This document shows, one piece after another, positions 15,274 to 61,243 of a stretch of DNA of 64,000 nucleotides. This DNA is from Actinokineospora inagensis DSM 44258 (GTDB lineage: Bacteria; Actinomycetota; Actinomycetes; Mycobacteriales; Pseudonocardiaceae): contig NZ_AXWW01000015.1 in assembly GCF_000482865.1 (NCBI RefSeq), positions 16,732 through 80,731 of the forward strand, read 5' to 3'. Numbering within the stretch: the first letter of the stretch is position 1; each line of letters starts with the position of its first letter. The position numbers were made by a program, and so were the translations under genes. The notes beneath the pieces are model-generated. The model was not told the DNA's origin. It saw nothing but the letters and a program-made list of their open reading frames with translations, and did not search any database.

Positions 15274-15385
15274 CAGGAGCCCGCCCACCCGGGGGCCGGG
15301 GGCCCATTCCTGAAGGTAGCGCGGATCGTGGCTTGTCAAGAGGGGTGACGAGTCTGCTGTGGATGGGCGGATGGGATGTGGACAG
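15274..15385 (-). repeat. Interspersed composite element, copy A
   Basis: Read on the minus strand: CTGTCCACA (15385-15377) and CCATCCACA (15366-15358), DnaA-box-like 9-mers 19 bp apart; TTGACA at 15339-15334; 15-bp gap; TACCTT at 15318-15313; then CAGGA-ATG and a GC-rich hairpin closing with TCCTG at 15278-15274. Spacing matches copies B and C exactly. An array of ~30-bp repeats lies directly upstream (15386 on). Confidence 0.82.
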
Positions 15386-15830
15386 CCCGTCTGCCAAGGG
15401 CGGCCGGGTGGTAGACCTTGGCCCGTTGTGGGCGGTTGGAACGCAGACAGCCGTTGTGGGACGGACGCGCCAGCGAGCCTGCTTCGGGCGGATGGGACGT
15501 GGGCGGCAGCCCATTGGGGTGGATGCGACGCAGGCAGTGGTCCCGCTGTGCGGCGGAGGGACAGCGAGCCTGCCGTGGGCGGACGAGAGGTAGCCGGCGA
15601 CTTGTTGTGGCGGATGCGACGCAGGCGGCGGTCCTGCTTGTGGGGCGGAGGGACAGCGAGCCTGCCGTGGGCGGACGAGAGGTAGCCGGCGACTTGTTGT
15701 GGCGGATGCGACGCAGGCGGCGGTCCTGCTTGTGGGGCGGAGGGGCGGCGAGCGTGCTGTGAGTGGCGAGACGTAGACAGTGGCCCGTTGCGGGCGGGAC
15801 GCAGATAGCCCGCCGTAGGACGGACGGGCC
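15386..15830. repeat. Tandem ~30-bp repeats with a 92-bp higher-order period
   Basis: Degenerate units of about 27-33 bp, most ending near cttgtgg or ccgtggg followed by cgga. The segment 15552-15643 repeats almost exactly as 15644-15735 (period 92, about three units), and a third partial copy starts at 15736. Units toward both ends are more diverged. There are no unique spacers, so this is not CRISPR. Open frames crossing it are not credible genes. Confidence 0.8.
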
Positions 15831-15932
15831 GGCAGACCCCCTGTGAGCGCGCGAGACGTGAGGGCAGCGTGTCCGCCGCTCGGTGGGTGGAGCCTGTGGC
15901 AAGAGCACTGTCCCGCCCGTCACGTCGGAGGG

Positions 15933-15949
15933 GTTGCATGATTTGCAAC
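15933..15949. promoter_or_regulatory. Palindromic operator GTTGCA-N5-TGCAAC (site 2)
   Basis: GTTGCATGATTTGCAAC has the same six-base arms and five-base spacer as the site at 10586-10602. It lies 74 bp upstream of the kinase-IclR-ridA operon, whose own IclR regulator is the natural candidate to bind it. Confidence 0.75.
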
Positions 15950-16022
15950 GAGTAGTGCGTCAGGTGATACGCAGTGTGTAGCATCTGGCCGGTGTCGGTC
16001 AATCGGCCGTGGAGGGGTGGGG

Positions 16023-58502: not shown

Positions 58503-60758
58503 ATGCAGCCGTTCCAACTGCCGGAGTTCTACATGGCGTATCCGGCGCGGCTGAACCCGAACCTGGACACGACGCGGGTGCACAGCAAGGCGTGGGCGCG
58601 CGAGATGGACATGATCGATGTCCCGCAGCACGGCACGGTCATCTGGACCGAGGCCGACCTGGACGCGCACGACTACCCGCTGCTGTGCGCATACACCCAT
58701 CCGGACTGCGACGCCACCGAGTTGGACCTGATCACCGACTGGTACGTGTGGGTCTTCTACTTCGACGATCACTTCCTGGAGCTGTTCAAGCGCACCCGCG
58801 ACACCCAGGCCGCGCGCGCGTACCTGGATCGGTTGCGGCTGTTCATGCCGGTCGACGGCCCGATCACCGAGGCCCCGACCAACCCGGTCGAGGCGGGGCT
58901 GGCCGATCTGTGGTCGCGCACGGTGCCGTCGATGTCGGCCGACTGGCGGCGCCGGTTCGTGGAGAGCACCAAGAACCTGCTCGACGAGTCGCTGTGGGAG
59001 CTGGCGAACATCAACGAGGGGCGGGTGTCGAACCCGCTGGAGTACATCGAGATGCGCCGCAAGGTCGGTGGCGCCCCCTGGTCGGCGAACCTCGTGGAGC
59101 ACGCGGCGGGGGCCCAGATCCCGGCGGTGATCGCCGGGAGCCGCCCGATGCACGTGCTGCGCGACACCTTCGCCGACGCGGTGCACCTGCGCAACGACCT
59201 GTTCTCGTACGAGCGCGAGGTGCTCGACGAGGGTGAGCTGAGCAACGGGGTGCTGGTGTTCGAGAAGTTCCTCGGCATCGACACCCAGGCCGCCGCGGAC
59301 GCCGTCAACGACCTGTTGACGTCCCGGTTGCACCAGTTCGAGCACACCGCCGTCACCGAGGTCCCGCCGCTGTTCGAGGAGCACGGCATCGCCACCGAGG
59401 ACCGGCTGGGGGTGCTGGCGTACATCAAGGGCCTGCAGGACTGGCAGTCCGGCGGGCACGAGTGGCACATGCGGTCCAGCCGATACATGAACGGCGGTGG
59501 CCAGGCGGGCGGCAAGCTGCTCGCCGGACCGCTGGGGCTGGGCACGTCGGCGGCCCGGATCGTGCCGTCGCTGCTGGCCACGCACCGGCAGCGGCAGCGG
59601 TCGTTCACGCACGTGCCGTACCCGGACGTGAGCGGGGTGTCCCGGCCGGAGCTGCGGATGCCGTTCCCGGTCCGGTCCAACCCGCACCTGGGTGCCGCCC
59701 GGGAGAACGTGATCACCTGGGGCAAGGCGGTCGGCATCATCGACGAGCTGCCGGGTCTGTGGGACGAGGAGAAGTTCCGCGACTACGACCTGCCGCTGTG
59801 CGCGTCGGGCATCCACCCGGACGCGTCGGCGGAGCAGTTGGACATCTCGTCCGGCTGGCTCGCCTGGGGCACCTACGGCGACGACTACTACCCGGTGCTG
59901 TTCGGCAAGGCGAGCGACTACCCGGCGGCGAAGGCGCAGACCGAGCGGTTCTCCGAGTTCATGCCGATCGACGGCGAGGCGACCCCGGAGCCGGTCAACG
60001 CGCTCGAACGGAGTCTGCTGGACCTGTGGTTGCGCACGACCGCGCCGATGACCCTGGACGCCCGCGGCCAGTTCCGCACCGCGATCGAGGTGATGACGGC
60101 GAGTTGGCTGTGGGAGCTGGCGAACTCGTACCAGAACCGCATCCCGGACCCGGTCGACTACATCGAGATGCGGCGGCACACGTTCGGCTCCGAGCTGACC
60201 ATGAGCCTGTCCCGCATCGGCCACGGCCGCACGGTGCCCGCCGAGGTCTACCGCAGCCGCCCGGTGCTGGCCATGGAGAACGCCGCCATGGACTACGCCT
60301 GCATGATCAACGACATCTTCTCCTACCAGAAGGAGATCCAGTTCGAGGGCGAGATCCACAACATCGTCCTGGTCGTGCAGAACTTCTTCGACACCGACGC
60401 GCACACCGCCATGACCATCGTCGGCGACCTGATGGACAGCCGCATGCGCGAGTTCGAGCACGTGGTCACCACCGGCCTCCCCGCCCTATTCCAGGACTAC
60501 AACCTCGACGCGGACGCCCAGCGCACCCTGCTCGGGTACGCCGAGGAACTGCGCAACTGGCTCTCCGGCATCCTCGCCTGGCACGAGGGCTGCCGCCGCT
60601 ACGCGGAGCCGGACCTCATCCGCCACTTCCCGGACAGCCCCGGCGCCCCGAAGTCCCCCGAGGCACCCCAGGTCCTGTTCCGCCCGTCCGGCCTGGGCAC
60701 CGCAGCCGCCAGGCTCATCCCGCCAACCCGAGTGGGCAGCCTGGTCGCGGGTTCCTGA
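58503..60758 (+). CDS. geoA: Geosmin synthase (bifunctional terpene cyclase)
   Basis: A 751-residue class I terpene cyclase with two fused domains. The N-terminal half converts farnesyl diphosphate to germacradienol (metal motif DDHFLE from residue 88; NSE triad NDLFSYERE from 231). The C-terminal half converts germacradienol to geosmin (DDYYP from 460; NDIFSYQKE from 603). Length, both motif pairs and the opening [19 protein letters not shown] are those of known geosmin synthases. It needs no other gene besides FPP supply. ATG 58503 follows GGAGAGGG. A distinctive secondary-metabolism gene of soil actinomycetes. Confidence 0.97.
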
Positions 60759-60853
60759 CCCGCCAACCAACCGGCGTGTCCACGCCGACCGACGGTTGGC
60801 TAGGGCCTCGGTACGCCCGGAATCAGCGAGTTGTCGGCATCGCTGTGTGCCGT
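60759..60853. other. Region downstream of geoA
   Basis: Contains a pair ccaaccaaccgg / ccgacggttgg (about 60762-60797) that can form a terminator-like stem for geoA. Confidence 0.5.
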
Positions 60854-60965
60854 CCATCCACAATGCCCTGACCTGTCCACCGGTCCTCCCGCCACCCCCT
60901 TGACAACCCGCTCCCCGCGCTATCTTCAGGAATGGGCCCCCGGCCCCCGGGTGGGCGGGCTCCTG
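60854..60965 (+). repeat. Interspersed composite element, copy B
   Basis: CCATCCACA (60854-60862) and CTGTCCACC (60873-60881) are 19 bp apart. TTGACA (60900-60905), 15 bp, TATCTT (60921-60926). CAGGA (60927-60931) joins ATG (60932-60934), and the GC-rich hairpin closes with TCCTG (60961-60965). All spacings equal those of copies A and C. Confidence 0.85.
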
Positions 60966-61131
60966 CCTGGACCACGACGGCGCCGGAGTCAAGCGCGTGA
61001 TCGGGTGGAAACCGGCACGGGTGGCAGCCAGGGCGAGACCGGGTGGAAGTCGGTACAGGGTGGATGAAGCCGATCCCGGGGCCAGGTGAAGGCGGTACGC
61101 GGCCTGGGGTGCTGGGCGGCGGGCGATCGGG
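60966..61131. repeat. Tandem ~38-bp repeats between copies B and C
   Basis: About three degenerate 38-bp units with core cGGGTGGAAnnCGGnACnGGGTGG (units near 60993-61030, 61031-61068 and 61069-61110). The array lies directly upstream of copy C, as arrays do for copies A, D and E. Confidence 0.65.
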
Positions 61132-61243
61132 TTGTCCACAAGGCGTGGGGCTGTCCACAGCTGGTGGTCGGGTCCCCTTGACAAGTCGTGGATCGCGGTA
61201 CGGTCAGGAATGGGCCCCCGGCCCCCGGGTGGGTGGGGTCCTG
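61132..61243 (+). repeat. Interspersed composite element, copy C
   Basis: TTGTCCACA (61132-61140) and CTGTCCACA (61151-61159), 19 bp apart; TTGACA (61178-61183), 15 bp, TACGGT (61199-61204); CAGGA (61205-61209) then ATG; hairpin closing with TCCTG (61239-61243). It matches the hairpin of copies A and B almost base for base. Confidence 0.85.

Follow-up and report, generated by a model that had tools for sequence, protein, structure and literature searches.

In a 64,000-nucleotide stretch of Actinokineospora inagensis DSM 44258 (contig NZ_AXWW01000015.1, positions 16,732 to 80,731), which we refer to as the window, two TCCACA-type boxes that resemble DnaA boxes recur five times at a spacing of 19 bp and are followed by a promoter-like segment. 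These copies raised the question of what the paired boxes do and which promoters use them. A preliminary description had suggested a DnaA-regulated small transcript, sites for DnaA titration or reactivation, or a mobile repeat carrying its own control region. The architecture was real and non-random: it was a tandem DnaA-type box promoter that had spread as non-coding units in the genomes of one family. The pair was also shared with natural transformation and recombination promoters of the order (Mycobacteriales), a point that was absent from the preliminary description. We think it probable that an activator-dependent promoter, driven by DnaA and shared by com genes, recombination genes, and dispersed non-coding units, has the paired boxes as its upstream activation element.

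Paired boxes in the window and in the genome

The TCCACA-type pairs of the window were located at 15358-15382 (-), 53497-53521 (-), 56864-56888 (+), 60857-60881 (+), and 61135-61159 (+), and are referred to as copies A to E, respectively (Table 1). All five two-box sites had a spacing of exactly 19 bp, as described previously. Four of the five pairs were exact, and the second box of the 60.9-kb copy was TCCACC. Dinucleotide shuffles of the window predicted 0.01 exact pairs, compared to the 4 that were observed. The promoter-like parts required some correction. TTGACA had been assigned to copies A, B, and C; at 24 bp from box 2, it was present at 15.3, 60.9, and 61.1 kb (copies A, D, and E) and absent at 53.5 and 56.9 kb (copies B and C). 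Similarly, the start of the -10 had been placed 44 bp from box 2 in copies D and E, and this distance was actually found in copies B and C, with 45 bp in copies A, D, and E. We considered TTGACA to be a doubtful -35 element because the gap between TTGACA and the -10 was only 15 bp.

The genome to which the window belongs (G000; 7,277,107 bases in 97 contigs) contained 174 exact TCCACA-N13-TCCACA pairs, and the reversed-pattern control yielded 0. At a spacing of 18 bp, there were 9 pairs (control, 4). An 843-kb sequence sample of this genome, which was mostly fetched around 19-bp pairs and is unbiased for the other spacings only, contained 69 pairs at 19 bp and at most 4 at every other spacing up to 120 bp. 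The comparison of spacings that had been put forward as a way to refute the element did not refute it (174 exact pairs at 19 bp and 9 at 18 bp), and the arrangement was far from chance. Given the shuffles of the window and the reversed-pattern control, the idea that chance or base composition produces the pairs can practically be dismissed. In 40 blocks fetched from this genome (L051-L090), isolated YYRTCCACA sites were also frequent (137, compared to 27.5 expected from base composition), and part of them may be partners of degenerate pairs.

The pair at transformation and recombination genes

The comEA-comEC operon of G000, in which Pfam confirmed the ComEA domains with ComEC behind, had a promoter consisting of GGGTTGTCCACA-N13-TCCACA, TAGCGT, seven bases, and the ATG. 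The yraN gene of the same genome had TTATCCACA-N13-TCCACT, with one mismatch.

For ComEA relatives, a genome scan provided 80 loci, 77 of which had enough upstream sequence; the nearest named ComEA was that of Actinokineospora sp. NBRC 105648 (57%). Same-strand TCCACA pairs were present at 38 of the 77 loci, each pair at a different locus, with spacings of 17 bp (4 loci), 18 bp (24 loci), 19 bp (7 loci), or 20 bp (3 loci). All other spacings between 8 and 60 bp gave 4 pairs in total, the opposite strand gave 0, and the downstream control gave 1. An in-frame start was located 56 to 60 bp past box 2 in 33 of the 38 pair-bearing loci, at any pair spacing. Because the distance from the start to box 2 was constant whatever the spacing, box 2 was taken as fixed to the promoter and box 1 was tolerated at 17 to 20 bp. 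The carriers included Kutzneria, Amycolatopsis, Lentzea, Salinispora, Micromonospora, Actinoplanes, one Saccharopolyspora, a Kitasatospora, Actinacidiphila, and Nocardia camponoti.

Within the order, genomes of relatives from many families had more 19-bp pairs than the control. We sampled eight genomes from other families and obtained 50 loci with 52 distinct pairs, of the 83 listed for them. A coding-like frame started 74 to 78 bp past box 1 in 31 of these 52 pairs, and the other 6-bp bins contained 0 to 8 starts. The frames behind the 52 pairs, at any distance, matched RecA (1), ComEA with SLBB and HHH_3 (4), SSB (3), CpaB-like SAF (3), ComF-like Pribosyltran (3, two of them below the curated cut-off), and YraN (6; PF02021 places adjoining pairs) in Pfam. 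The other matches were to a ParA/MinD-type ATPase (1), which was CpaE-like by eye, DUF4244 (1), DUF4192 (3), M23 (2), and DUF559/MTES_1575 (3, one of them below the cut-off), and several frames had no Pfam match. Putative assignments, made by reading or from matches below the cut-off, were those of another recA (L183), one more ssb (L186, the fourth), a weak RcpC (L190), a CpaF-like frame (L041, no Pfam match), and comM-like frames behind yraN. In this yraN/comM-like setting, dprA is the usual neighbor. The same operator was common to DNA-uptake and recombination genes, and it was not found in all lineages.

In the congeners, recA carried a pair in G014 and G015 (identified by sequence), and a gene for an Lhr-type helicase carried one in G015. 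The pair of G006 yraN was located 150 bp ahead of the YraN match. Among 30 yraN loci examined, from 60 genomes with a match, 10 had an exact 19-bp pair and 4 had a pair with one mismatch; the corresponding null was contaminated by real pairs (125 of 2,000 at 0 mismatches), and the remainder had 3 to 6 mismatches.

The genes for DUF4192, nuclease-like DUF559/MTES_1575, and M23 peptidase proteins that were found behind a pair (L170, L187, L031, L165, L191, L185, L188, and L194) are possible new transformation genes. One pair was followed by an HTH_31 gene (L050), a conceivable autoregulated activator that was seen only once.

Non-coding units and their spread

The anatomy of the units was determined by reading 99 of the 174 pairs in G000, and classes were assigned by simple rules. 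Class I (37 of the 99) mostly contained CTTGACA, TANNNT, and CAGGAATGGGCCCCCGGCCCCCGGGTGGGNGGG. In class II (38), TTGACA was untypical and GGTAGACTGGNNTCGGGGACGCCCCCCGGGAAGGGTGGGGG then followed, and class III (9) contained TAGGCTGGATTCGGGGGCTGCTCAG. The other 15 pairs included that of comEA, and some of them look like chance sites within genes. The boxes (by query), the -10, and the module did not vary among the copies; the spacer of 13 bp was variable, as was a large part of the segment from box 2 to the -10, with the exception of a class-specific block. A G-tract begins about 7 nucleotides past the -10 in all three classes, and it is at this position that com genes, such as comEA of G000, have the start codon. 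The window copies were non-coding, with the pair, the -10, and then the G-tract at the com-gene start-codon position. Those at 15.3, 60.9, and 61.1 kb belonged to class I, the 53.5-kb copy belonged to class II, and the 56.9-kb copy was a diverged member of class II. None of 55 units of classes I to III overlapped a called gene, and the genes called (by a simple rule) covered 68% of the sequence. The pair looks like the switch that controls DNA-uptake genes in this group of actinobacteria, and one genome has copies of it at well over 100 non-coding sites.

The ATG of GGAATGGG in class I units is located at the com-gene start-codon position, and one G015 unit has a GTG there, as expected if this ATG were the start codon of a leaderless micropeptide (MGPxxPGG...) encoded in class I units. 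This seemed very unlikely, given that some copies (L083 and L012) have one-base indels past the ATG, that no conserved C-terminus was visible by eye, and that classes II and III have no start codon at this position.

Several further features of the units were noted. A GATGATC or TTGATCTTG block lies between box 2 and the -10 in class II and comEA of G000, and after the start in class III. GTCAAG is repeated downstream of the module in class I and some class II units of G000, in inverted orientation relative to the class I CTTGAC near box 2. Two loci of G000, L056 (C7:65959) and L234 (C66), represent a class II subtype with a single TTATCCACAGG box, GATCCACTG further downstream, and no pair. 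In L011 (C2:217605 of G000), the class I module switches abruptly after GGAATGG into TGAACCGCCCCGGG..., and this junction sequence looks like the end of an insertion sequence.

Class II modules were also counted with a model that used the sequence only. The model was built from 28 sequences, and 150 candidates per genome were scored. There were at least 149 modules in G000, at least 146 in G016 (another genus), at least 141 in G005, and at least 95 in G015. Of the 41 genomes examined, 18 contained the module, as did 5 of the 26 genera sampled, and the model found 0 copies in all 16 genomes of other families. The abundance of the class II module is not a selection effect of the pair query.

The number of exact pairs varied from 7 to 324 per genome among 15 congeners. 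The class II unit upstream of hisG, the one locus compared, was absent from that place in all 15. G014 had 9 pairs, of which 6 were class II units by eye and 5 by a stricter rule, and G015 had many near-identical class III units. Copy number and shifting positions lent support to the earlier suggestion of a dispersed repeat carrying a control region. It is possible, with somewhat less than even prospects, that the dispersed units have no host function and arose when non-autonomous, purely selfish repeats acquired a promoter of the competence genes; the spread in pair numbers, the missing hisG-upstream unit, and the near-identical class III copies are all in line with this. In contrast, the boxes, the -10, and the module are conserved while the spacer and much of the sequence between box 2 and the -10 differ, which looks like selection on the copies, and no linked transposase was noticed, although neither transposases nor terminal repeats were searched for. 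In plasmid and phage records, the class II unit was without a match at an expectation value of 0.01.

Positions relative to dnaA were determined in G006, using 100 of 111 places. The 77 loci were distributed over eight distance bins from dnaA as 16, 11, 14, 8, 2, 11, 9, and 6, with 44 along the replication fork and 33 against it. Thus, the mapping relative to oriC that had been recommended showed no strong pattern. This bears on the possibility that the units are DnaA titration or reactivation sites with an incidental promoter. A large amount of DnaA would be bound by the approximately 350 boxes that form exact pairs, and G006 contains a box array with a period of mostly 18 to 19 bp. Pure titration, which was among the roles suggested earlier, was nevertheless less likely, since conservation extends to the -10 and the start-site module, which lie at a fixed distance. 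The same pair is also found at genes, and strong clustering near dnaA was not seen in G006. We therefore regard titration with an incidental promoter as improbable. The array of G006 (L329; C1:5942500-5946500) consists of nearly 30 TCCACA-type boxes on one strand and sits directly upstream of a class III unit.

The candidate activator and related systems

The boxes of the window and of G000 were YYRTCCACA, mostly with TTG or TTA as the first three nucleotides, which is the DnaA-box sequence; TTGTCCACA is listed in PMC4285127 as a high-affinity DnaA box of Mycobacterium tuberculosis and Streptomyces coelicolor. As a reference, we used 68 YYRTCCACA boxes from dnaA-region loci of 18 genomes, a set in which proven and chance sites are mixed. 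These boxes had a preceding G in 47 of 68 cases, R was G in 50 and A in 18 (74% G), and a G followed in 38 of 68. Among the paired boxes of G000, a G preceded 71 of 88 first boxes and 54 of 79 second boxes, and R was G in 73% and 80%, respectively. A G followed 66 of 79 second boxes in G000, and 34 of 38 and 34 of 43 boxes in other families. The previous identification of the boxes as DnaA-box sequences thus agreed with the preceding G and with the degeneracy at YYR. Because the paired boxes resemble the boxes around dnaA, the leading candidate for the regulator is DnaA. Of 61 genomes, 59 had a single protein that matched PF08299, which represents DnaA domain IV, and the other two, one of which is 74% complete, had no match. 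Since none of the 61 genomes had a second PF08299 protein, a second DnaA-like regulator was rejected. The box comparison and the single domain IV protein favor DnaA as the binder but do not prove it.

A less probable alternative is that a dedicated competence activator, and not DnaA, binds the pair as a tandem, asymmetric DnaA-like site, with all else as in the explanation that we prefer. The pairs are found mainly ahead of genes for transformation and recombination, the geometry is strict, as expected of such an activator, and the enrichment is lineage-limited. In addition, box 1 of G000 is without the following G that was seen around dnaA. Competence control in Actinomycetota is described as little known, and upstream regulation in Micrococcus luteus as unidentified, in PMC12849477. 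On the other hand, box 1 and box 2 are like the dnaA-region boxes in their YYR degeneracy and preceding G, the spacing is tolerated from 17 to 20 bp, and there is no second protein with DnaA domain IV.

In the explanation that we prefer, two tandem DnaA-type boxes (at 19 bp here and 17 to 20 bp elsewhere) would act as an upstream activation element, with box 2 at a near-fixed distance from the -10 and no consistent -35. DnaA would bind the pair and recruit RNA polymerase, thereby activating rather than repressing the promoter. In the order, natural transformation and recombination genes would be transcribed from this promoter, often into leaderless mRNAs. The copies found in the window belong to a dispersed, positionally unstable non-coding family that shares this promoter but has a G-tract module of class I, II, or III in place of the start codon. 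DnaA would activate the genes for DNA uptake and strand exchange and, along with them, the dispersed units. The predicted transcripts of the units would be G-initiated, often GT-rich, co-expressed non-coding RNAs, and the many boxes may also draw DnaA away from oriC. Between 100 and 600 bp downstream, the non-template strand had a GT content that was 0.60 to 0.65 for class I and fell from 0.70 to about 0.58 for class II (0.57 to 0.70 for the two classes overall); it was 0.50 in 85 element-free tandem spacers that served as a control. A GT-rich non-template strand is a trace that long-term transcription or R-loops would leave, although an indirect one.

A number of results weighed against this explanation. 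With regard to the genes, 39 of the 77 ComEA loci had no 17- to 20-bp pair, including all 13 Streptomyces, both Nocardioides, and all 3 Aeromicrobium loci. No 19-bp pair within one mismatch was found at 16 of the 30 yraN loci, and 21 of the 52 pairs from other families had no start at 74 to 78 bp. Some pairs were located at unrelated genes (those for LysE, phosphoglucomutase, an alpha/beta hydrolase, and the HTH_31 protein). With regard to the units, only 24 of 67 class II cores of G000 that were chosen regardless of boxes (C1-C26) had an exact 19-bp pair, always at exactly 69 bp. Seventeen cores lacking an exact 19-bp pair were inspected (14 of those 43 and 3 elsewhere): 9 had a 19-bp pair with one mismatch, 3 had an exact 18-bp pair, and 5 had neither. 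An obvious -10 was missing in most of the 10 pairs (of 41) that were read by eye in G028. Class III (7 units) showed little GT excess, and the folding of seven modules was no better than that of shuffles (z, -0.28 to 1.60). With regard to DnaA, a G followed box 1 in only 13 of 88 cases in G000, compared to 38 of 68 around dnaA. In 137 genomes from outside the order, there was no 19-bp enrichment (no more than 4 pairs per genome), and DnaA itself is universal. Finally, the pair spacing shifts within the order, and a different protein with DnaA-like specificity would lead to identical sequences.

The G028 pairs at L126-L153 had the form TCCACAGGGGGCGGAGTTGTCCACA, mostly without an obvious -10, and are perhaps another use of the pair. 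Pairing between the C-tract and the G-tract was near-invariant in the alignment and uninformative on RNA structure. Rfam gave 0 gathering matches in the window, and six other loci gave only one sub-threshold match, to a small nucleolar RNA.

A bolder proposal is that natural transformation in the order has DnaA as its master activator and that the units are competence-induced initiators of recombination. DnaA-driven transcription of the G-tracts would form R-loops or G-quadruplexes on the GT-rich strand that could be used by RecA; more than 100 chromosomal sites would thus be marked for exchange with incoming DNA, and uptake would be coupled to the replication state. We consider this proposal a long shot.

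Several known systems share features with the units. The repetitive extragenic palindrome, enterobacterial repetitive intergenic consensus, and miniature inverted-repeat transposable element types of repeat are likewise short, intergenic, and dispersed, with lineage-specific positions. The units described here differ in being headed by an operator-promoter. In the Neisseria pilE G-quadruplex, a short promoter also fires through G-tracts with 1-nucleotide loops (GGGTGGGTGGGG in class I), but that system is a single locus with a cis-acting small RNA promoter, whereas the units are dispersed and their role in recombination is hypothetical. The datA locus, the DnaA-reactivating sequences (DARS), and the DnaA-box clusters of Bacillus also place several DnaA boxes outside oriC; those are few loci with no start-site module, and the units are many and have one. 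With a -10 and a module at a fixed distance, the units do not appear to match a datA/DARS-type box cluster that has no promoter role.

Where DnaA serves as a transcription factor, 9-bp DnaA boxes are similarly found upstream of genes; here, a tandem pair lies at a near-fixed distance from the -10, and at transformation genes. The word "competence" does not occur in the main text of the review PMC8203912. The cia-dependent small RNAs (csRNAs) of Streptococcus pneumoniae, which belong to the CiaR regulon, are similar in being several like non-coding RNAs under one regulator and tied to competence (PMC4507080). The csRNAs described there number five, whereas there are at least 149 class II modules here, with another operator and with transcripts that are predicted only. 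In our searches of open-license papers, none of the titles and abstract openings retrieved dealt with this motif at com genes.

An operator that has the form of a DnaA-box pair and is shared by comEA, recA, ssb, comF-like, yraN, and Flp-pilus-type genes would offer a direct handle on competence control, which consists of one motif, one leading candidate protein, and predictable promoters. Carriers for such studies include Salinispora, Micromonospora, Actinoplanes, Amycolatopsis, and Lentzea. It is unusual for one lineage to scatter a promoter with a non-coding start module genome-wide, and the scattered units would, if they have a function, link the supply of DnaA to competence and genome plasticity.

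Table 1. Parts of the five window copies (positions are those of the window)
Copy	Feature	Position	Strand	Remark
A	Paired DnaA-type boxes CTGTCCACA / CCATCCACA, spacing 19 bp	15358..15385	-	
A	TTGACA, box 2 +24 bp, doubtful -35	15334..15339	-	Coordinates derived from offset
A	-10-like TACCTT	15313..15318	-	
A	Class I start-site module GGAATGGGCCCCCGGCCCCCGGGTGGGCGGG	15272..15313	-	
B	Paired boxes TTGTCCACA / CCGTCCACA	53497..53524	-	hisG downstream on same strand
B	-10-like TAGACT	53453..53458	-	
B	Class II module GGCCTCGGGGACGCCCCCCGGGAAGGGTGGGGG	53411..53452	-	Core mismatches 0 (core G000:C11:70146-70183)
C	Paired boxes TTGTCCACA / CTGTCCACA	56861..56888	+	
C	-10-like TAGTCT	56927..56932	+	
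C	Diverged class II module AATAGGGTGGCCCCCCGGGCGGGAGGGG	56933..56974	+	"Other" under the stricter class rule
D	Paired boxes CCATCCACA / CTGTCCACC	60854..60881	+	3' of terpene synthase gene
D	TTGACA, box 2 +24 bp	60900..60905	+	Coordinates derived from offset
D	-10-like TATCTT	60921..60926	+	
D	Class I module	60926..60967	+	
E	Paired boxes TTGTCCACA / CTGTCCACA	61132..61159	+	
E	TTGACA, box 2 +24 bp	61178..61183	+	Coordinates derived from offset
E	-10-like TACGGT	61199..61204	+	
E	Class I module	61204..61245	+	

The terpene synthase, with two Terpene_syn_C_2 matches, is located at 58494-60755 of the window, between copies C and D.

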